This document shows positions 3,852 to 33,505 of a stretch of DNA of 35,910 nucleotides, one piece after another. Location of the stretch: positions 1 through 35,910 of the forward strand of contig JARLHL010000103.1 of NCBI GenBank assembly GCA_031292275.1, given 5' to 3'. How positions within the stretch are numbered: position 1 is the stretch's first letter; each line of letters starts with the position of its first letter. Made by a program: the position numbers and the translations under genes. Origin of the DNA: Desulfocapsaceae bacterium (GTDB lineage: Bacteria; Desulfobacterota; Desulfobulbia; Desulfobulbales; Desulfocapsaceae). Under the pieces are notes generated by a model. That model worked only from the letters and a program-made list of their open reading frames with translations. It searched no databases and was not told where the DNA came from.

Positions 3852-4093
3852 CAGACGCACCCCTTGCGATCGGTATCGGCGGTCTGCGGCTCCTTCGCCC
3901 ATCCGGTCGACTCGGCGAAGTCCACAGCCTTTATGGCCATGGCGTCGCCTGTCGCAACCAGAAAAGAGGCGTCGACACCATCAGCCAAAAAATCGGCCCA
4001 GGAGATGCCGTGCCCGGCAAACCAGGGCCGCAGCCCCCGGTTGCAGTAGCCGCAGGCCCGCAGATGCCAGTGATAGACCCTTTTTTCTCTCAT
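3851..4093 (-). CDS. Small tail-assembly protein
   Basis: 80-residue protein with YHWHLRACGYCNRGLRPWF near the N-terminus (Cys and His that could bind metal) and ADFLADGVDASFLVATGDAMA after it. It overlaps the upstream small protein by ATGA and the tail-tip gene by TGATG, so it belongs to the coupled tail-tip operon. Short proteins sit at this place in other Mu-like siphophages; the exact role is unknown. Confidence 0.75.
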   Translation of the reverse strand: MREKRVYHWHLRACGYCNRGLRPWFAGHGISWADFLADGVDASFLVATGDAMAIKAVDFAESTGWAKEPQTADTDRKGCV

Positions 4094-4323
4094 TTCTTGC
4101 CTCCGGAGCAGGACCTGATAGGCGTGGTGCCGATATCCCCATACCAGACGCAGTTGGCGCCCTCCAGCAGCCGGGTGCCGAAGAGCACCGGCACCGGCGA
4201 GGCCGCGTCCACGGTGGTGGCCTGGACCTCACCGGGCACGGGCGCGGGGCTGGTGTTCGACGCGGGTCTTGCCAGCAGCGCGGAGACGATCTGCAGACCT
4301 ATCCAGATAACCAATTGCCACAT
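4090..4323 (-). CDS. Small N-terminally hydrophobic tail-region protein
   Basis: 77 residues. An N-terminal hydrophobic helix (WQLVIWIGLQIVSALLA) is followed by a Ser/Pro-rich linker and a compact segment, PVPVLFGTRLLEGANCVWYGDI. The motif VPVLFGT...G.N.VWYGD is common near the start of tail-assembly or tip proteins. ATG at 4323 has GGGAGG 6-7 nt upstream. The frame stays open far upstream (to 4710) only because it reads through the tandem repeat, and that extension is not believed. It ends in an ATGA overlap with the next gene. Confidence 0.75.
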   Translation of the reverse strand: MWQLVIWIGLQIVSALLARPASNTSPAPVPGEVQATTVDAASPVPVLFGTRLLEGANCVWYGDIGTTPIRSCSGGKK

Positions 4324-4332
4324 ACATCCTCC

Positions 4333-4563
4333 CAGCAGGGCTGGACCAGACTGACCAGCCTCAAGGTTCCATGAAAGCGCCTCATTCCAGTATGGCAGGG
4401 ATGCCGCCTCCCCTGTACGCTTTCCTTTAAAGCAGCAGGGCTGGACCAGACTGACCAGCCTCAAGGTTCCATGAAAGCGCCTCATTCCAGTATGGCAGAG
4501 ATGCCGCTCCCCGGTGCGCTTTCCTTTAAACCAGCAGGGCTGGACCAGACTGACCAGCCTCAA
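4333..4563. repeat. Tandem array of a ~100-bp dispersed repeat (2.3 units)
   Basis: Unit 1 is 4333-4432 (100 bp), unit 2 is 4433-4531 (99 bp), and a 32-bp partial unit is 4532-4563. Units are nearly identical and each begins CAGCAGGGCTGGACCAGACT. Each contains an inverted repeat (GGCTGG, 10 nt, CCAGCC). The array begins 1 nt after the stop of the BR0599-family gene and ends just before the ribosome-binding site of the 77-residue gene. Diverged single copies occur at 12322-12420 and 15249-15350, in the opposite orientation. Confidence 0.95.
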
Positions 4564-4564
4564 A

Positions 4565-5362
4565 TCATACAAGGGCATCGCCCGAGAAGGGATTCTTCGC
4601 AGGCAGAAAAGGCAGACCGCCGTAGTTGGCGATGTTGCCAAACTTTGTCCGGCAGGTATCGACGGACCGGTCGCAGCCGGGCCAGAGTTCGACCGCGGCA
4701 CCCGGAGCAAGGGCTTCGATGCCGTCGATCAGCCGGATATCCGTCCCCGCATGGCCGACAATCATCCTCCGCTCGCCGCCGTATTGCAGCATGCCGCCGG
4801 TGAACCACCCCGGAGCAAAGCCCTCGGCGCCGCTGACCCTAAGCCCCGGGCCGGAGACAGAGGACGCTATCGCGGAAAAACGCCAGTCCTCCGGATGTAC
4901 CCGGCAGGCGGGGCCGTAGAGCAGATGCGGGCAGCCGATCTGATAGACCCGCCTCAGGCCAGCCCGTTTAAAGAGCGTGAAGACCGACTCCGACCCCAGC
5001 CTGGCCACGCTGCCCGACCAGGTGCAACCTACGATCCGTCCCTTCCAGAGCACCGAAAATTCCCCATCCTCGTAATGGTGCCTGAAGATGGTGACCACCA
5101 GAGCGGAGTCCAGCCAGCCCGACCGGAAGAGCAGCGCCAGCTCGTTGCTCGCGGCAATCTCGATGTCCATCTGGGATTTTCTGGCGTCGCCGCCCTTGGT
5201 GAAGCCGCCGCGCCGGATAAAAACCGGCTGGTATTTCTCCCGGCCGTTTGCGATCTCATGATCGGCGCTGGTAAACAGCCAGAGCCTGCCGCCCAGGGCG
5301 AAACGGTACAGCTCCAGGGGATGGCCGCCGTAAACGGATTGCTCGCGTTCGATATAGCTCAT
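4565..5362 (-). CDS. BR0599/DUF2163-family phage tail protein
   Basis: 265-residue structural protein of the distal tail. MSYIEREQSVYGGHPLELYRF is the typical N-terminus of the Phage_BR0599 family (PF09356), and CPHLLYGPACRV plus AAVELWPGCDRSVDTC fit its conserved Cys-containing C-terminal part. In the R. capsulatus gene transfer agent and related siphophages this protein lies between the distal tail protein and the tip. Start ATG 5362 overlaps the upstream stop (ATGA); the open frame to 5518 is not used. Confidence 0.9.
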   Translation of the reverse strand: MSYIEREQSVYGGHPLELYRFALGGRLWLFTSADHEIANGREKYQPVFIRRGGFTKGGDARKSQMDIEIAASNELALLFRSGWLDSALVVTIFRHHYEDGEFSVLWKGRIVGCTWSGSVARLGSESVFTLFKRAGLRRVYQIGCPHLLYGPACRVHPEDWRFSAIASSVSGPGLRVSGAEGFAPGWFTGGMLQYGGERRMIVGHAGTDIRLIDGIEALAPGAAVELWPGCDRSVDTCRTKFGNIANYGGLPFLPAKNPFSGDALV

Positions 5363-6915
5363 GTCAGCACCATGACGGGCAGGGTGGCCTCCAGGCAGTC
5401 CCAGCCCAGCCACCTGAGGTTGATTGTGTCGGTATCGAGCCGCACCGGCTCCAGCCAGGCGCAGCGATTCAGCTCGCGGCCGGAGATATCCATCGGCAGG
5501 GGCTCGTTCAGGGTCCATCGCTCATCGCCGCCCGGCAGGGTCTCGACGCCGGTGATCATCCTGCGGATAACCTCGCCCGAGACCGCGATCAGCTCGATAT
5601 GGGATCGGGCCGGGCTGCCCTGCAGGGCATACTCATAGCCGATACCGGCGATGGTGAGCCGGATGTCGCCCGCCTTGGCCGGGGCCGGTTCGAAGGCCCG
5701 ATCGTTTGCCGCCAGCCAGAAGGGGGCCAGACGTCCGGCTGCCGCGAACAGGAAGCGCAGAAACCGGTCGATCCGCTCCCTGCCGATGATCCGGAAAACG
5801 GCATCGCGGCTCAGCACCGGCTCGATGGACAGGATATCGTATTCGACCAGGCCGGTCTCATTGTCGAGCTGCAGCCAGCGGTTGCCCTGGCGGTCTTCAG
5901 GCCCCTCCCAGGACGGCACGAACGGGCAGCACGGGATCTGCCGGTAGAGGTCCGGATTCTGTACGGCAGGCATCAGGGACTCGTCCGCGGCTTCGAAACT
6001 TACGCGGTAATCGGCCGCCTCCTCGGTAAATCGGCCGATGCGGCGCTGGGCAAGGGCGAGGCCGTGACGGCAGGGGGCCGCCATGCTCCCTTGAGGCCAG
6101 CGGCGCTCGAAGGGGGCGTCCACCGAGACGAAGCCCGCCCCGATGCCGGTGACGGTACGGATCTCGAAACGGTCCCAGGCGTCGAAGACTGCCGCCTGAC
6201 GGCCTGCGGCGTAGTCGAGAAACCGGGGATTGAGCGGTATGATCGTATCGCCCGCCGCGATGGGCGCCTGCAGCCTCTGGACATCCCGCCAGACCGGGGT
6301 CAGCAAAAAGCGGGTGCGGCGCAGGGAAAGCCAGCCCTCCAGCCTGCGGCGAGCCGAGCCCGCGGCCAGCATCCGCAGATCGAAGATCCGCCGGGGCATG
6401 GTCCGGAGCCGGACCCGCTGCTCGGTGCCGTCATGGGCGGTCAGGACGTCGGTCTTCCAGGCCAGGGTCTCGTTAAAGCCCTCCTGCCAGTTGTGGGGAA
6501 AAAACAGATACCCGATATCGCCTGAGATCTGCGGAACCCTGGTGCCGGCAATGATCAGGATCGGAGCGATCGCGCAGGCGGACAGAAAACTCAACCGCGC
6601 CTGAAACTCCAGCGGCCCTTTGGTGCCGACGGTGATGATAACCGCAAGCCCCGCCCCGCGGGGGATCTGCCGGGGCGGGTCCGGCGTCCAGGCTATCCCT
6701 TCGGCCGCCTCGTTGCCGATGATGTCCGCCAGGGTGATTCCGGCAGCCGATCCGTTCCACAAAAAGACCGGGAGCCTTTTCTCCCGCGTCACATAGCCCG
6801 CATCGACCGTCTTGCCGGTGAAAAGGGAGAAGTATTGGGCGGAACGGTCCGTCGTCCTGGCACCCAGGCCTGCAAGGGGGATGAAGCAGCAGGTATTGAT
6901 CAGTCCGCTTGCCAT
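5359..6915 (-). CDS. Distal tail structural protein
   Basis: 518 residues, no signal peptide. Likely beta-rich, with conserved-looking motifs FPHNWQEGFNETLAWKTDVLTA and RRRLEGWLSLRRTRFLLTPVW, which recall distal-tail or baseplate proteins of Mu-like siphophages. It is preceded by a 1-nt gap after the 79-residue gene and followed by an ATGA overlap with the BR0599 gene, so it is part of the tail-tip block. Role inferred from position; no catalytic motif seen. Confidence 0.75.
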   Translation of the reverse strand: MASGLINTCCFIPLAGLGARTTDRSAQYFSLFTGKTVDAGYVTREKRLPVFLWNGSAAGITLADIIGNEAAEGIAWTPDPPRQIPRGAGLAVIITVGTKGPLEFQARLSFLSACAIAPILIIAGTRVPQISGDIGYLFFPHNWQEGFNETLAWKTDVLTAHDGTEQRVRLRTMPRRIFDLRMLAAGSARRRLEGWLSLRRTRFLLTPVWRDVQRLQAPIAAGDTIIPLNPRFLDYAAGRQAAVFDAWDRFEIRTVTGIGAGFVSVDAPFERRWPQGSMAAPCRHGLALAQRRIGRFTEEAADYRVSFEAADESLMPAVQNPDLYRQIPCCPFVPSWEGPEDRQGNRWLQLDNETGLVEYDILSIEPVLSRDAVFRIIGRERIDRFLRFLFAAAGRLAPFWLAANDRAFEPAPAKAGDIRLTIAGIGYEYALQGSPARSHIELIAVSGEVIRRMITGVETLPGGDERWTLNEPLPMDISGRELNRCAWLEPVRLDTDTINLRWLGWDCLEATLPVMVLT

Positions 6916-11890: not shown

Positions 11891-12313
11891 TGACGCCCAT
11901 CATTGCTAGTGCCCGCAGGAAAAATGCATAGCCGTATTCCCAGGTTATTGGACCGTGTCCGGCTCCGATGACGAGGCAGATTGCATCGGTGAGCGCTTCA
12001 CCGCCTCGCTTATCGATTCTTTTATCGCCGCCATGATTACCCGGTCGATCCCCATTTGGCGGCACACTCCCAAAAAAGAGGAATTCACCTCCTCGAAGGC
12101 CTGCCACAGCTCCTCGATTTCTGACGGGTACATTTCAAGAAGAGTTTCTTCCGTAAGATCAGGGCAGCCGAGTTTTAATAAATCTTTCATCCGGTCGATT
12201 CCGGAGACGGTTTCGTCCCCGGAATTATTGACCAGATCCCAGATTGTGCGGACGGAAAGCTCGCGGACGGTGAAGGATCGGTTGCCGATCGGGATGGTTT
12301 TGGTTTTCTGCAT
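11883..12313 (-). CDS. Tail assembly chaperone, long -1 frameshift product (GT-like)
   Basis: Predicted 143-residue fusion: the first 81 residues are read in the frame of the short chaperone, then a -1 slip at 12071-12077 gives 62 more residues, ending ICLVIGAGHGPITWEYGYAFFLRALAMMGVNG just inside the tape-measure start. The extension frame is open exactly over the overlap and its stop overlaps the tape-measure ATG, which is how lambda G-GT type pairs are arranged. The long form should bridge the tape measure and tail tube during assembly. Seen: frame, slippery heptamer, downstream stem. Inferred: slippage frequency and function. Confidence 0.8.
11945..12313 (-). CDS. Tail assembly chaperone, short form (G-like)
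   Basis: 122 residues, acidic and helical, with the start MQKTKTIPIGNRSFTVRELSV followed by WDLVNN and ...LTEETLLEMYPSEIEELW, as in phage tail-tube chaperones encoded between the tube and the tape measure. Start ATG at 12313 has AAAGGAG 8 nt upstream, beside the diverged dispersed repeat. The C-terminal tail is Ser/Pro-rich. About one third of its length lies after the frameshift site, so both products share residues 1-81. Confidence 0.85.
   Translation of the reverse strand: MQKTKTIPIGNRSFTVRELSVRTIWDLVNNSGDETVSGIDRMKDLLKLGCPDLTEETLLEMYPSEIEELWQAFEEVNSSFLGVCRQMGIDRVIMAAIKESISEAVKRSPMQSASSSEPDTVQ
12027..12077 (-). promoter_or_regulatory. Programmed -1 ribosomal frameshift signal
   Basis: On the coding strand the heptamer T TTT TTG (12077 down to 12071) is in the correct X XXY YYZ phase with codons 80-81 of the chaperone. 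Seven nt later there is a perfect 7-bp GC-rich stem, GCCGCCA (12063-12057) with TGGCGGC (12033-12027), enclosing a 23-nt loop. Slippery site, 5-9 nt spacer and stem are the standard parts of a -1 signal. A -1 slip joins the short chaperone to the frame that ends at 11883. Confidence 0.88.
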
Positions 12314-12321
12314 ATGGTGCT

Positions 12322-12420
12322 CCTTTTTTGAAAGTCTCCCAAGAGCAACGGCCTCGCCTTGCCGGAGTTGCGAGCTTTCATGGTCTGCCCAGGCTGGCCA
12401 ATTTGGTCCAGCCCTGCTGG
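12322..12420. repeat. Diverged single copy of the ~100-bp dispersed repeat
   Basis: Read on the minus strand it starts CCAGCAGGGCTGGACCA directly after the tail-tube stop codon, carries the inverted repeat GGCTGG/CCAGCC (10-nt loop), then CCATGAAAGC, and ends near CTTTC before the chaperone ribosome-binding site. It is recognisably the same unit as at 4333-4563 but more diverged and in the other orientation. Confidence 0.8.
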
Positions 12421-13164
12421 TTAGATGATTTCAAACGGCCAGGTCTTGCCCTCGGGGGTAATCATGGTGCCGACAAAGCCCAGCTCGGGGAAGCCGCCCT
12501 GGGCGAGCATGTCGAAATCGCCCTCGGCCCGGAGCTGGACCTTAAAGACCCGGAGCTTGATGTCGCTGCCGTCCACATAGTTCCTGCCGTCCAGATACAG
12601 GCCGACATTGATCACCGGCGAGGTGGCTCCGGTAATCTTGCTGCCGCTGGCCGCAGCCTTGTTTCCGGACAGATTCAGGACCTCGCCGTCTTTGATTGAA
12701 CCGGTAGACAGCGCTCTTATCATTCCCATGCGCAGGTTGATCTCATAATCCGTCCCCAGCGTGTAGGTTGCGAGGCCATCCTCGTCCTTCACCTCGCAGG
12801 TCGTGAGATCGACCAGCTCGATCGGCACCCATTTATCGTGGATGGCGGTGACGGCGGCGGAATAGGCTCCCGCGTCCGCCTCCATGTCCTGGGCCCGGCC
12901 CATGAAGAAGGCGGCCAGGATCCGGGGATCGTAGCGGTTCAGTGACAACGAAACGGTGGAACTGGTGATCCGGGTATAGGAATCGCCGGTCTGGCCCAGG
13001 GTGTCGCGGCCGTTGAGCTTGTTTTCAAGCGTCTCGGTCTCCACCTTGGGGATCAGCTTGGTGGCGTTGCCGACCAGGTCGAAGCCGGTCGAGGCCCCGT
13101 CCGGAGTCAGAAAATCAAAGTACAGATCACCGCCTGCGATGATGCCTTGCTGTGCTGATTTCAT
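12421..13164 (-). CDS. Major tail tube protein
   Basis: 247 residues, beta-rich. Segments KLIPKVETETLENKLNGRDTLGQ, TSSTVSLSLNRYDPRILAAFFMG and TLGTDYEINLRMGMIRALS match phage tail-tube proteins that carry a linear array of beta strands and a YDP motif. It should polymerise into the non-contractile tube. ATG with AAGGAG 8-9 nt upstream, in ATGA overlap with gp37. No tail-sheath gene is present anywhere in the window, supporting a siphovirus tail. It is followed by a dispersed repeat. Confidence 0.88.
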   Translation of the reverse strand: MKSAQQGIIAGGDLYFDFLTPDGASTGFDLVGNATKLIPKVETETLENKLNGRDTLGQTGDSYTRITSSTVSLSLNRYDPRILAAFFMGRAQDMEADAGAYSAAVTAIHDKWVPIELVDLTTCEVKDEDGLATYTLGTDYEINLRMGMIRALSTGSIKDGEVLNLSGNKAAASGSKITGATSPVINVGLYLDGRNYVDGSDIKLRVFKVQLRAEGDFDMLAQGGFPELGFVGTMITPEGKTWPFEII

Positions 13165-13574: not shown

Positions 13575-14002
13575 CACAGGCCCCTCATTTTTCTCCGGCT
13601 GAAGATCCGCTCGTTCCCGGAGACCAGCGCCCCATGGCTGACATTGTCCGCCTGGACCATGCGCGGGATGCCGATCGAGGCCTGGCCCTTCTGGACCAGC
13701 CGCAGGAAGTCCAGCGCCTGCTTGTGCCGCTGGCCGATCAGATCCGGCATCGGCACATGGGTGCGCCTGCTGTACAGGTTATAGACGGCCAGGTCCACCG
13801 TGTACATCCGGACCAGATCCGGCACCGGATCAAACGGCACGCTGTACAGATCCCGGCAATGGGCGTCGATTAAGGCCATGCCGTTGGCGATGGCCCGGTC
13901 CACGGCCGTTTCATCAACCGCCCCGGTCTGTTCATCATCGGTGAGGCTGATCAGCTCGGCCTCGGCCATCTGCTCCAGGATGTCTGCAAGCTCGGCATAC
14001 AT
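13574..14002 (-). CDS. Mu gp36-like protein (DUF1320), head-tail connector
   Basis: 142 residues, all-helical. MYAELADILEQM, AVDRAIANGMALIDAHCRDLY and VDLAVYNLYSRR are the DUF1320 signature seen in Mu gp36, which resembles gp6-type head-tail adaptors. ATG at 14002 overlaps the stop of the HI1506-like gene (TGATG); a GTG one codon upstream (14005) is an alternative. It sits between HI1506-like and gp37 genes, exactly as in FluMu. Confidence 0.9.
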   Translation of the reverse strand: MYAELADILEQMAEAELISLTDDEQTGAVDETAVDRAIANGMALIDAHCRDLYSVPFDPVPDLVRMYTVDLAVYNLYSRRTHVPMPDLIGQRHKQALDFLRLVQKGQASIGIPRMVQADNVSHGALVSGNERIFSRRKMRGL

Positions 14003-14241
14003 CACTGTTCATCCTCGCTTTCTTCGGAGCCTTTCTTCTCCTCCTTCTTGCCGCTGCCGGCATTCTGTTTGGAGCCTTTCTTCTCCTCCTCTTTGCCGAT
14101 GCTGAGATTCAACATCGGCTCGGCCTGCAGCACCTTCAACTCCTCGGCGCTGAACCGGTCGTCGGGATAGTCGACCGGCCGCACCGGATGGGCAATGCCG
14201 CAACGCCTGAAGCCTGCCTGCCTGCTGGTAATCGTGATCAT
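14002..14241 (-). CDS. HI1506-like / gp35-like protein with acidic-basic repeat tail
   Basis: 79 residues. The N-terminal half (RQAGFRRCGIAHPVRPVDYPDDRFSAEELKVLQAEPML) is the FluMu HI1506 family signature. The C-terminal half is low complexity, with the GKEEEKKGS/GKKEEKKGS motif twice and an acidic end (EESEDEQ). The repeat is also visible in DNA (14028-14100). GAGGTG lies 5-6 nt before ATG 14241. Located between major capsid and gp36; role in head assembly unknown. Confidence 0.85.
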   Translation of the reverse strand: MITITSRQAGFRRCGIAHPVRPVDYPDDRFSAEELKVLQAEPMLNLSIGKEEEKKGSKQNAGSGKKEEKKGSEESEDEQ

Positions 14242-14341: not shown

Positions 14342-15235
14342 CTATGCCAGCCAGGGCACTTCCAGCAGGCCGACACGGTTGAAGTTGATATTCGAGTCGC
14401 CGCCGTTGATCAGCTGGGCCTGGAGAATCTTCCTGGCCGCGCTGGCATTCGACGACCCGACGACCAGCAGATCCGGGGTGACGCCCAAGGGGCTGCCGTA
14501 GTCGCCCTTGAACGCGCTCATGGCGGCGTAGGCGGCCTCGAAGTTGTCCGCATCGAGCACGGCCCTGGAGCCGTAGGCCATCTGCCAGAAACCGAAGCCG
14601 ACATTGCAGCGGGAATCCACACCGTAGATCAGATCCCCCTTCATAAAGACATTGCCGTCGGTCTCCTTGTCCAGGGCGACGAAGTTCGCACCCTTGCGGT
14701 CCTGAAAGATCAGCGGCTTCAGCGGCCTGCGGGTGTCGAGCAGGAACCACGGCGCACGAGCTCCCGGCTGGACGTTGCCGACCGAGGCAACACTGCCGTC
14801 CTCCTGGATCACCGGGTGGTCGGCATCAAAAAAATACTGTTTGTCGTAACATCTGGTGGTAAAGCCTGCGGCAAGCAGGGCAAAGACCAGCCGGTCCGGA
14901 TGCTCGGCGGCATTCTGGCCCAGCATCTGCATCAGCGGAGTGTAGATGCCGTACTGATCGTCGTCGATCTTGTCGCTGTCCACGGCGACGGTGGACTCGA
15001 ACTTCTTGTTCTTGATCGAGTAGTCATGCTGGCCGAGGTTGTTGATCTGCCGGTCTCCGATCCATTCCCGCATGCCGGGGATCTGGCCCAGCCAGCCGTA
15101 ATCCTCCACGCTGGTCGAGGACGGAATCCTGGTGGCGATCTTCTGCCAAAAGGAAGGTGCTCCGGCAAAACCGTTCTGGAAGGCGGTCTTGAAGGCCCGG
15201 AAGAGAATTGCCAGGCTGTTGCTGTTGATTATCAT
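14342..15235 (-). CDS. T: Major capsid protein, Mu gpT family
   Basis: 297-residue major head subunit. Matches the Mu gpT family (PF10124): FKTAFQNGFAGAPSFWQKIAT, VEDYGWLGQIPGMREWIGDRQ, KKFESTVAVDSDKIDDDQYGIY and DADHPV are the family's conserved segments. ATG with GGGAG 8 nt upstream; that ribosome-binding site lies at the very edge of the dispersed repeat. Flanked by the cement protein (upstream) and HI1506-like gene (downstream). Its stop TAG is followed at once by the purine repeat. Confidence 0.95.
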   Translation of the reverse strand: MIINSNSLAILFRAFKTAFQNGFAGAPSFWQKIATRIPSSTSVEDYGWLGQIPGMREWIGDRQINNLGQHDYSIKNKKFESTVAVDSDKIDDDQYGIYTPLMQMLGQNAAEHPDRLVFALLAAGFTTRCYDKQYFFDADHPVIQEDGSVASVGNVQPGARAPWFLLDTRRPLKPLIFQDRKGANFVALDKETDGNVFMKGDLIYGVDSRCNVGFGFWQMAYGSRAVLDADNFEAAYAAMSAFKGDYGSPLGVTPDLLVVGSSNASAARKILQAQLINGGDSNINFNRVGLLEVPWLA

Positions 15236-15248
15236 GATATGCTCCCTG

Positions 15249-15350
15249 CTGGTTTATATGAAAGCCCCCCAGAGACGGCATCCTTGCCATACTGGAATGA
15301 GGCGCTGCATGGTTTGCTAAGGTCGGTCAGTCCGGTCCAGCTTTGCCGGC
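15249..15350. repeat. Single copy of the ~100-bp dispersed repeat between cement and capsid genes
   Basis: On the minus strand it begins directly after the cement-protein stop (TAG at 15353-15351), keeps the CGCCTCATTCCAGTATGGCA core of the 4.3-kb units, and ends with CAGCAGGGAG, whose GGGAG is the likely ribosome-binding site for the capsid gene. Less identical at its outer arm than the units at 4333-4563. Confidence 0.85.
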
Positions 15351-15761
15351 CTAACGGAAGTCGACCCAGACGCCCCGGGCGTCCACGTCGAAGACCTGGC
15401 CCGCCACCGATCGCGCCCCTGAGCCATTGGTTTTGGCCACGGTCTGGTCGTCGGCGATATAGCAGTCCTTGCCGATGTCGGCCCTGGTGACCAGGTCGCC
15501 TGCGGCCGAGTTGGCAAAACGGAAGATCCCCTTATCGATCTCCACCGTCTTGTCGCCAGCGGCCCCGCCCGCATTATCTACCGTGGCGGTTGCCCGGCCC
15601 GCGCCCAGGAGGCCTGCTGCGGCCTTTCCCGGCACGGCGTTGCCGCTGCCGTCGCGGGCGACCAGCGCGCCTGCGTAGATGATCACTGCCGCGGCCGCCG
15701 CCAGGCTCAACCGGCTGCCGTCTCGTTCGATGGTGTCGCGCTCTGCTGCCAATGCTGTCAT
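15351..15761 (-). CDS. Capsid cement/decoration protein
   Basis: 136 residues, Ala/Gly-rich with likely beta structure: AAAAVIIYAGALVARDGSGNAVPG, GRATATVDNAGGAAGDKTVEIDKGIFRFAN and VAGQVFDVDARGVWVDFR fit the DUF2190-like/FluMu capsid cement proteins encoded between protease/scaffold I and capsid T. It should bind and stabilise the expanded head. GAGGAG lies 6 nt before ATG. Its stop is abutted by a dispersed repeat. Confidence 0.85.
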   Translation of the reverse strand: MTALAAERDTIERDGSRLSLAAAAAVIIYAGALVARDGSGNAVPGKAAAGLLGAGRATATVDNAGGAAGDKTVEIDKGIFRFANSAAGDLVTRADIGKDCYIADDQTVAKTNGSGARSVAGQVFDVDARGVWVDFR

Positions 15762-28317: not shown

Positions 28318-28489
28318 TAGCTTGACAACCAGCCAGAGAAGTAAAGTCTTCTTGAACAGCAATAAAATTACGAATCTGCTCCCCCTGCATATTTAACCTG
28401 CTGTTTATCTAGTCTTAATTTTTCTGGCTGGCATCTTCAGGCCGACGGAACCACCCGCCGGCGACCCCGGACAGGCCGGGGTTTCGCCT
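28318..28489. other. Gap after the small plus-strand gene with a wide inverted repeat
   Basis: CCAGCCAGA (28329-28337) and TCTGGCTGG (28423-28431) form a perfect 9-bp inverted repeat 85 nt apart. The stretch between is AT-rich. No gene seen. A compact hairpin lies at 28461-28487 (separate entry). Confidence 0.5.
28461..28487. terminator. Compact GC hairpin after the 57-residue gene
   Basis: CCCCGG (28465-28470) and CCGGGG (28476-28481) with a 5-nt loop, extended by GCGA/TCGC arms with small bulges. It lies 2 nt past the stop of the minus-strand gene at 28490. There is no T-run in that direction, so it may only pause or protect the transcript. Termination is possible but unproven. Confidence 0.4.
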
Positions 28490-31306: not shown

Positions 31307-33505
31307 TTACATTCCGTTTTGATTTGCCTCCGCCAGCCCCGCCTTTTCCCTGAGATCGCCTTCCAGCTTCATGTACATCATCCCCGAGTTGGTGGTGTAG
31401 TACTCCGTCAGCCAGTCGTATTCTCTGCGGCTTAAGGGCCGGTTTTCCTTTTTGATTCGGGTGCGGATCTGGTCGTAGATATCCGAGTCGGAGCGCAGGA
31501 CTACAATCTTCTCCTCGCGTTTCATTATCCTGCTGTTATTCTCCAGGATCTCAGATCCGACACTGGTAAGCATCCCGTCGAACTGACGATTGCCCCTGCC
31601 AAGCTCCGCCATGGCCTCCGCGGCCCGGCCAGCCTCTTCCAGGGCTGGGGTGGTGTACGGTTTTCGGGGCTTGGGCAGATCGATGATGGCGGCGGTCTTT
31701 TCCTCGCGGGAGGCCAGGATTTCTTCGTGCACCATATCCAGGGCCTGTTTCTTGACGATCCGGTTCAGCTCCTTTTGCGCATCTTTGAGCAGCTTTTTCT
31801 GGGTGTTGCGGAGTTTTGCCGCGGTCTCGGCCCGATCGATGCCTGTGCGCCGCGGGTTCTGGGCCACACAGAGGAAGGCGTTGGTGTCGGCGTCAAAGAT
31901 ATAGATGGTTCCCAGGTCGAGGGTATCGATCCGCACCCGCACAGTGGTGCCGACTTCCGGCAGCATGTCGCTGATATAGGTGATATTGTCTACGGAGACC
32001 CCGGTCTTGGCCACTGTCCGGACGCCGCCGCCTGGGGCTGCAGCCAGCAGGATGTCCAGGGCGCGCTCGTTGCCGATGCCACGAACCGCCTCCTGCCAGG
32101 CGCGGGCTACTTCCGCAGGCGTCCGGCCGTTTAATTTCCTGTGCTTATTCTGGTGGTAGATGGCATTGCACCAGCGGTCGCAGTAGGCCTGCAGCTCTTC
32201 TGCCGTCATGTTGATCTCAACCATTTGGTCTTTGCCCATTATCCGGGATGCGAAGCTGCGGCGGGCCTCGATGTCCTTGCGTTCTGCCACCGAATGGCCG
32301 ATATAGCCCGGCATAAGCTCCTGAAAGGAATGGGCGAAGGTCTTGAAGGCCCGCTCGATATGCGGCTTGGCCTCCGGAGTGAAGGGCGGACAGAGGATCT
32401 GCTCTATCTGCAAGGCCTCGAAGACCTGGACGATATGGCGAGAGACATAGTCGGCACCGTTGTCGGTTTTGGCGGTCTCAGGCACGCCCCAGTCGAGCAG
32501 GGCCCGGCGGATCAGCGCCGCCACGGCGGTTGATCGAGATGTTTTTGAGACATGCAGCTTCAGGCGTCGGCTGTAGACATCGATCACCCCGATCAGGGTA
32601 TAGCGGCCATCGGCCAGCATCACGTCGGCAGGCGTGGAGTCGAATTCCCAGACCTGGTTGAGGCGCAGGACCTGCTCCGAGGCGTCGCCGATTGCAAATT
32701 GCCGCTGGTTGCGCCACTTGTCGGGGCTGGTGGTGAAGAGAAGCAGGCTGGCGTTCTCGCTCTTCCAGCGGTTAGTGAAACGGCGGATCGAGCTTGCGCC
32801 GGGCAGATCGGCAAAACGGGCCTCCATGGCCATCTGCAGGGTGGAGAATTTGGCATTCGGATGCGCTTTCAGCATGCCGATGATGAAATCTTTATGGCTG
32901 GAGGTGAGCTGGCTGGTTCCCTTTTTCGGGTTGCGGTAGTCCGGGGCAAGGCCTGCAAGGCCATCCTGCTTGAGGGCGGCCTGCCAGCGGCAGAGGCTGG
33001 ACCAGGACACCTGGTCGACATGCTTTTTGATATGGTCGGCGATCCGGATCTCGCCGCTGTTGTAGAGGTCGCAAAACCGGGCGGTGCCTTTTTTGATGTT
33101 GGTGGCTGCGGAAGCGGCAAGAAAGCCTTCCCAGGCCCGCAGGACATCCCGCCGGGCGTAGGCGATTTCCTGCCTGGCGGGCGGGATCTCGCCGAAGGCG
33201 GCAAGGTTGGCCTCTGCTGCGATTCGTTCTTTTTCGCTGGTCTCAGCCCGGCTTTGGGCGGCGGTATTGCCAGCCTCGGCCCCGGCCATGCCTGCAGGGG
33301 TGGAGACGATGACGGACGTTGCCCTTGAGCGGGCCAGTCGGAGGCGGATATCCTCGGGTAGAAAGGAGATGGGAAAACGCTTTTCCAGGCCACCTTTACC
33401 AGTTACGAAAGTATGGCGCCAGTTGTCGTGTGATGCCTTGCGGCATGCCGACCTCCTGCTGATCCCCAGGGCCTCTCCGATTTCCAGAATGCCTACCGAT
33501 TTCAT
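31307..33505 (-). CDS. A: DDE transposase, MuA family
   Basis: 732-residue transposase that cuts and joins phage ends to target DNA. N-terminal HTH (GILEIGEALGISRRSACRKA), then DNA-binding region, then catalytic core with Asp289 (VWEFDSTPAD), Asp348 (AKTDNGADYVS) and Glu384 (KPHIERAFKTF), the DDE triad with D-35-E spacing. The C-terminal 200 residues, basic and helical (KKLLKDAQKELNRIVKK), likely interact with MuB. Slightly longer than Mu A (663). AGAGG lies 9 nt before ATG 33505, in a 4-nt gap from the upstream gene. Confidence 0.97.
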   Translation of the reverse strand: MKSVGILEIGEALGISRRSACRKASHDNWRHTFVTGKGGLEKRFPISFLPEDIRLRLARSRATSVIVSTPAGMAGAEAGNTAAQSRAETSEKERIAAEANLAAFGEIPPARQEIAYARRDVLRAWEGFLAASAATNIKKGTARFCDLYNSGEIRIADHIKKHVDQVSWSSLCRWQAALKQDGLAGLAPDYRNPKKGTSQLTSSHKDFIIGMLKAHPNAKFSTLQMAMEARFADLPGASSIRRFTNRWKSENASLLLFTTSPDKWRNQRQFAIGDASEQVLRLNQVWEFDSTPADVMLADGRYTLIGVIDVYSRRLKLHVSKTSRSTAVAALIRRALLDWGVPETAKTDNGADYVSRHIVQVFEALQIEQILCPPFTPEAKPHIERAFKTFAHSFQELMPGYIGHSVAERKDIEARRSFASRIMGKDQMVEINMTAEELQAYCDRWCNAIYHQNKHRKLNGRTPAEVARAWQEAVRGIGNERALDILLAAAPGGGVRTVAKTGVSVDNITYISDMLPEVGTTVRVRIDTLDLGTIYIFDADTNAFLCVAQNPRRTGIDRAETAAKLRNTQKKLLKDAQKELNRIVKKQALDMVHEEILASREEKTAAIIDLPKPRKPYTTPALEEAGRAAEAMAELGRGNRQFDGMLTSVGSEILENNSRIMKREEKIVVLRSDSDIYDQIRTRIKKENRPLSRREYDWLTEYYTTNSGMMYMKLEGDLREKAGLAEANQNGM

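Follow-up and report, generated by a model that had tools for sequence, protein, structure and literature searches.

In this work, we describe a repeat of about 100 nt, present at three late gene junctions of a phage and at numerous places in the genome of its host, which is probably a host-borne, non-autonomous mobile element that inserts just 3' of a TRA(A) triplet, is likely moved by an HUH-type enzyme, and has entered the phage. Its mobile character is supported by its copy number and dispersal, its asymmetric ends, the lack of a detectable target duplication, the phase of the stop codons at its border, and the empty junctions in related genomes.

Repeat Copies in the Late Gene Region of the Phage

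The analyzed window, i.e., the whole stretch of DNA under study, is a phage contig of 35,910 bases (G000:C50) within a 4.14-Mb host assembly (G000). According to profile matches, its minus strand carries terminase, portal, head, and tail genes; we read the phage, as well as the transposase encoded in it, as Mu-like. The features of the window discussed below are the following:

4090–4323, minus strand: tail assembly chaperone gene (phrog_1180), downstream of the array
4333–4432, plus strand: element unit 1 of the tandem array, antisense to the late genes
4433–4531, plus strand: element unit 2, 96% identical to unit 1
4532–4563, plus strand: truncated unit 3, first hairpin only, 32 nt
4565–5518, minus strand: tail assembly protein gene (phrog_778), which precedes the array in the direction of transcription
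12321–12420, minus strand: single element copy between the major tail protein gene and the next gene (ATG at 12313)
12421–13164, minus strand: major tail protein gene (phrog_807), upstream of the 12321 copy
14342–15235, minus strand: major head protein gene (phrog_371), downstream of the 15251 copy
15240–15250, minus strand: CCAGCAGGG stretch, directly behind the 15251–15350 copy and overlapping the RBS
15251–15350, minus strand: single diverged copy between the phrog_1731 gene and the major head gene (ATG at 15235)
15351–15761, minus strand: virion structural protein gene (phrog_1731), upstream of the 15251 copy
31307–33505: transposase (phrog_310), profile match

The start of the chaperone gene (ATG 4323) is a probable one, deduced from the profile match within ORF 4090–4710. 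Apart from the repeat, the window contains a 43-nt direct repeat at 14023–14110 (two copies 45 nt apart, 84% alike), falling within a small ORF (14002–14241) that adjoins the major head gene, and, outside the late genes, a type II hammerhead ribozyme (28422–28489, minus strand; Rfam RF02276, 51.7 bits, E 5.6e-8).

The first-pass annotation had reported the approximately 100-bp repeat between late genes, and this was confirmed for 4333–4563, 12321–12420, and 15251–15350, although the third unit of the array comprises only 32 nt. Its observation that the copies start at a stop codon applies to both single copies, in which the stop TAA (12421–12423) of the major tail protein gene abuts the 5' end of the 12321 copy and the stop TAG (15351–15353) of the phrog_1731 gene is located at the 5' end of the 15251 copy. 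It does not hold for the antisense array, whose 5' end touches the RBS of the next gene (the first base of unit 1 overlaps GGGAGG, 4328–4333, of the chaperone gene), while the stop codon of the tail assembly gene (4565–4567) is found beyond the truncated 3' end, 1 nt past unit 3. At all three sites, the repeat fills the space from the stop codon of a late gene to the RBS of the next one.

The Tandem Repeats Finder indicated a single array in the window (4332–4563, period 100, 2.3 copies, 95% match), and a repeat search paired this array, in inverted orientation, with 12391–12427 and 15272–15306. A covariance model, trained on 38 host and phage copies with the window copies among them, matched 4328–4433 (plus strand, E 1.8e-18), 4428–4532 (plus strand, E 7.8e-21), 12321–12424 (minus strand, E 2.9e-20), and 15251–15353 (minus strand, E 5.5e-17); the blastn matches at 12391–12419 (E 3.5e-4) and 15272–15341 (E 2.6e-12) are independent of this model. 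The nearest relatives of the phage copies are host copies (identity of 0.80, 0.77, and 0.75), and the three phage sites were presumably entered independently. The CCAGCAGGG stretch behind the 15251 copy looks like the remnant of an earlier second tandem unit, or may be a product of chance.

Copy Number and Distribution of the Repeat

A blastn search with one unit as the query located 45 places in the host with E values of up to 10, including 27 with E below 1e-4, and the covariance model gave at least 150 host matches with E at most 1.2e-6. Within the fetched host stretches, 153 non-overlapping copies were distinguished at E up to 0.001, of which 145 are at least 95 nt long; completeness was judged by match length, because the model reports positions 1–104 even for 54-nt matches. 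Moreover, a 20-base pattern of the 5' end (up to 3 mismatches) was found at 110 host sites, while its reversed control gave none.

Outside the host, exact-pattern matches were found at 19 loci in metagenome-assembled genomes (MAGs) of Desulfobulbaceae, Desulfobulbus, and Desulfoarculaceae. Among 58 compared genomes, 16 (the host included) contained an element match and 42 none. The numbers of matches per genome were: at least 68 each in G000 and G026, 63 in G039, 28 in G017, 22 in G051, 7 in G044, and 1–3 in ten others; under stricter filters, the sister genomes G001 and G002 had three each. G026 belongs to the same family as the host, and one of its copies, together with its context, is common to the Desulfobulbaceae record CALENA010000158, which makes it probable that the host itself belongs to the Desulfobulbaceae. 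In three loci of the Desulfobulbaceae MAG S143_11 (L049, L053, and L055), the first part of the element is kept and the second hairpin is changed or replaced, with nested palindromes.

Once one duplicate was removed, 141 of 145 G000 copies and 22 of 23 G026 copies had their nearest copy within their own genome, with the reservation that G000 dominates the sample and that its same-genome share is 0.76 once reduced to 23 copies. With the duplicate retained, the numbers were 140 of 145 and 23 of 24, respectively. Each lineage seems to have amplified its own copies. Within G000, the identity to the nearest copy has a median of 0.76 and a maximum of 0.97, which we read as a population of mostly old copies with some fairly recent ones. 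Between genomes, conservation is higher in the first 45 nt than in the remainder: G000 copies share with copies elsewhere a mean identity of 0.71 vs. 0.54, respectively.

These data bear directly on the idea of a phage-specific repeat inherited with the phage. The fact that all three window sites are late gene junctions would suit it; nevertheless, the presence of copies on many host contigs refutes it, exact-pattern scans of IMG/VR gave no match, and related viral loci also lacked the repeat (see below), so this explanation has next to no probability.

Ends and Hairpin Structure

The units are approximately 98–104 nt long and comprise two hairpins. In the logo of 136 copies, conservation spans AACCAGC to TATAAA, and outside this span it does not exceed 0.26 bits at nt 1 and 0.18 bits per position in the flanks. 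The ends are asymmetric, i.e., TRA(A)|CCAGC...TATAAA|; no terminal inverted repeat was found in this logo, the two ends being unrelated, and no target duplication was detected (best z of 3.7 over 1210 offset and length tests). At the gathering cut-off, no Rfam family was found on the window element, and five host loci gave four sub-threshold matches (E 2–4.1).

The tandem units, as well as the 5' CTAAC, recall a recombination site, e.g., an integron attC array (the attC R'' box resembles CTAAC, and attC sites contain a GTTRRRY motif) or a CRISPR-like array. Against this, there is no GTTRRRY at the 3' end of the element, its two halves form separate hairpins, and the copies are mostly dispersed singles. 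Both the attC and the CRISPR readings were ruled out on sequence, and a recombination site of this kind is extremely improbable.

The two-hairpin structure was proposed by hand from the sequences and then counted in 38 copies, where covariation supports it: 86.3% of the cells were paired, 26 cells showed double changes (compared with a shuffled mean of 15.8), and pairing dropped when the stem partners were slid; RNAalifold, applied to an unguided alignment, gave only a 5-pair hairpin. In 143 copies, pairing compared with shuffles was 0.879 vs. 0.865 for stem 1, and, for stem 2, 0.868 vs. 0.837 in the outer part and 0.649 vs. 0.583 in the other. When the four window copies were folded singly, 12322–12424 was better than most shuffles (z of −2.3), and the others had z from −0.8 to 0.2. 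The GGCTGG/CCAGCC stem named in the first-pass annotation is intact in the array and in the 12321–12420 copy, but in the 15251–15350 copy it is degenerate (AGCTGG/CCGACC), and the predicted fold of this copy differs.

The compensatory changes in the 38 copies would fit a selected cis-acting RNA element, controlling translation or mRNA decay between cistrons and spreading by duplication. Its location from stop to RBS, the lower rate of change between nearest copies in stems than in loops (0.148 vs. 0.211), and the excess of the sense orientation over the antisense one between co-directional genes (49 vs. 26 copies) point in the same direction. However, the excess of pairing over shuffles in the 143 copies is small, and most stem changes between nearest copies break pairs (276, compared with 119 one-sided changes that keep the pair and 23 compensatory ones). 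Moreover, copies occur in all gene arrangements and in both orientations, the phage array is antisense, and most of the sense excess is explained by stop-adjacent copies, which number 15 among the 49 in sense orientation. We consider such an RNA element improbable as the primary explanation, and a regulatory role, the second alternative of the first-pass annotation, may be a secondary effect of a mobile repeat. In our reading, the hairpins are the structure of active lineages, which drifts after insertion, and the slower change of the stems could reflect some constraint persisting thereafter.

Position of the Repeat Relative to Stop Codons

The start at a stop codon, noticed for the phage copies, also characterizes a sizeable minority of the host copies. 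From the 5' side, 26 same-strand genes enter the element, a count that depends on the simple ORF and codon script used for gene calling, which misses short genes (e.g., at C35:12812). Of these genes, 24 stop precisely at its border (7 at nt 3 and 17 at nt 4) and the remaining two at nt 2 and nt 8, with none reaching deeper; random cuts would be expected to leave two-thirds of the frames open. A further 13 same-strand genes stop within 60 nt before the element. The 25 stops at nt 2–4 comprise 18 TAA, 5 TGA, and 2 TAG. Of the 121 copies away from stops, 63 likewise carry TRA at nt 1–4, and it therefore looks like a DNA motif; the other 58 are without it, and no TRA precedes unit 1 of the phage array, both of which count against TRA as the target. 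Downstream, there are 34 cases in which the next sense gene starts within −20 to +40, and in 25 of them the distance from the element to this start is 8–26 nt; 3 of the 153 copies are located inside a called gene.

Comparable Junctions in Sister Genomes and Related Phages

The comparison of the 153 copies with sister DNA covered first 528 kb and subsequently 230 kb, with overlapping loci counted in, and flanks on both sides were recovered in 24 cases (19 and 5, respectively), two of which (C90:62040 and C90:62253) share one junction. The net extra length in the host was 79–128 nt in 10 flank pairs. In the other 14, it ranged from −1260 to +744 nt, with three negative values, which counts against simple insertion; other changes must therefore have occurred there too. 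A scan with the model of 23 of the 24 sister stretches (all except L143) showed no element in the gap, and one clear copy was found in the 703 kb of sister DNA scanned in this way. Since the sister DNA is approximately 60–90% identical in the aligned flanks, most junctions are not readable to the base. In one case, a copy is present in the sister genome G002 (C395). The host site homologous to its right flank, G000:C60:46899, has no copy among the matches listed, and the left flank of the G002 copy is unaligned.

For eight stop-adjacent copies, i.e., seven of the 25 and C35:12812 (recognized by eye), a homologous upstream gene was available in the sister. Its stop is located at the same codon in four cases (host/sister: C16:11827, TGA/TGA; C35:12812, TAA/TAA; C52:101407, TGA/TGA; C38:7213, TAA/TGA). 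At C52:9718, a site away from stops, TAAACC is present at the same place in the sister, and at C114:140123 no TRA was found in the sister comparison.

These comparisons matter for the possibility that insertion is nearly random, TAA being the first bases of the element itself, and that selection keeps the in-frame insertions near gene ends. CTAACC is indeed the 5' end of all sampled copies from G051 (4), G044 (3), and G054 (2), and in the remaining four sister cases (C90:62253, C90:64625, C33:12779, and C18:14204) the stop is placed 1–4 codons from the sister stop, which counts against insertion directly behind a pre-existing stop. On the other hand, the stops at the border vary among TAA, TGA, and TAG, half of the eight sister genes stop at the same codon, and TGA was kept in both TGA cases for which a sister sequence exists. 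Furthermore, no called gene enters the element in the other two frames, a pattern that selection against tails could mimic. Near-random insertion is hence a rather unlikely alternative to insertion behind TRA(A).

Related phages were represented by the best 80 of 189 viral loci with a relative of the head protein, covering up to 5 kb on either side of the head gene and so bearing mainly on the 15251 site; none contained a model match with an E value of 1 or lower. The phrog_1731 and head genes are separated by no more than 60 nt in 59 of 63 relatives, compared with 115 nt here. Likewise, no element match was found in 57 kb around a related prophage of G095, the head protein of which shows 65% identity and in which the corresponding gap, calculated from coordinates, is about 67 nt.

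The first-pass annotation had suggested a mobile host repeat that repeatedly landed where it does no damage. Both checks proposed with this suggestion speak for it: the unit occurs on many host contigs, and relatives without the insertions exist among the sister genomes, at comparable junctions, and among the related phages, where the gaps are short. The opposite pattern, i.e., a unit absent from the host and constant in related phages, was not observed.

Proposed Mode of Insertion and Search for the Mobilizing Enzyme

We propose that the element proper extends from CCAGC to TATAAA, can fold into two hairpins, and would insert immediately 3' of a TRA(A) triplet, mostly CTAA or TAAA, in a single orientation, with TRA as the probable recognized target. 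Because stop codons are such triplets, the element would often land directly behind a stop and leave the upstream gene intact. Its own 3' end, TATAAA, would recreate the target, and a later insertion there would give rise to head-to-tail arrays, an order of events that is plausible for the arrays. The folded single strand is likely moved strand-specifically by an HUH-type enzyme that acts in trans, in the manner of REP and IS200/IS605 elements; this enzyme class is suggested by analogy. HUH strand transfer fits asymmetric hairpin ends, one-way motif-directed insertion without target duplication, and the recurrence of the motif at the right end.

The Y1_Tnp domain (PF01797) was not found in G000, which is one of nine genomes without it, whereas 49 of the 58 genomes encode it; its presence consequently does not track the copy number of the element. 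Of six element-rich genomes, four contain Y2_Tnp and IS110, and the remaining two, G000 and G026, contain neither. Six Y1 loci (1 of 1 in G026, 2 of 8 in G051, and 3 of 4 in G001; loci of G017, G039, and G044 were outside this check) showed no element within up to 1.5 kb on each side. As G000 has no Y1, Y2, or IS110 match and the Y1 loci are not flanked by the element, the proposed HUH step is left without an enzyme, and the mover may have been lost, supplied from outside, or of another kind. In G026 (L158, contig C39), a Y1 transposase gene near the contig end has GGGGACAGACCA-type sequence on both sides, which is unrelated to the element.

An autonomous parent with these ends was not found among the 100 listed of the 110 5'-end sites. 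Thirteen of the 100 were absent from the model list, and 12 of them have a model end within 59–107 nt, ten at E up to 6.7e-5, i.e., further copies, and two at E 0.012–0.013; the 5'-end site C52:110942 has no model match. A more specific version of the mobile reading, in which the repeat is a strand-specific mobile family of Desulfobulbaceae and related bacteria, has the stop codon itself as its landing site, and is moved by an enzyme outside Y1, Y2, and IS110, is offered only tentatively.

Comparison with Known Repeats

Literature searches yielded no account of this repeat. It resembles GTAG- and CGTC-tagged REPs, which are also high-copy, intergenic hairpin repeats near the 3' ends of upstream genes, and in which the tag at one end can supply the stop codon of a neighbor. 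According to section 15 of PMC3733652, the termini of GTAG REPs often provide a TAG stop to neighboring genes, and the same paper describes CGTC REPs as likewise without a known dedicated transposase. An earlier study, as cited in PMC12306157, reported that REPs within 15 nt of a stop codon stall ribosomes in E. coli.

The element shares with REPs the high copy number and the extragenic position near gene 3' ends. In contrast, a REP is a palindrome of 20–40 bp with an unpaired GTAG or CGTC tag at one end, whereas the element has about 100 nt, two different hairpins, and the borders TRA(A)CC and TATAAA. REP pairs are inverted and the element units are head-to-tail. Finally, REPs are accompanied by a flanked RAYT (a Y1 transposase), while the host has none and the Y1 loci are unflanked.

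PATE-like derivatives of IS200/IS605 have hairpin ends without terminal inverted repeats, are not known to cause target duplication, and insert 3' of a motif resembling their own right end. The element agrees with non-autonomous IS200/IS605 derivatives in its hairpin ends without terminal inverted repeats, in the lack of target duplication, and, if the short motif is indeed its target, in insertion 3' of such a motif; it differs in that no TnpA is encoded in the host genome and no parent element with these ends was found. Classical MITEs are, like the element, short, high-copy, and non-coding, but they possess terminal inverted repeats and target-site duplications, neither of which was seen here.

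If the proposed explanation is true, the repeat would be a readable case of how a selfish sequence can reach a high copy number, in a compact genome as well as in a phage, through insertion at points where a reading frame has just ended. This opens questions about the enzyme that moves REP-like repeats without a RAYT and about the effect of the hairpins on the expression of phage structural genes. The element differs from REPs in size, tag, and structure, with no RAYT in the genome, and the supply of stop codons by REPs is already known; relative to the first-pass reading, the new part is the precision, i.e., the exact asymmetric ends and the border placed at stop codons.
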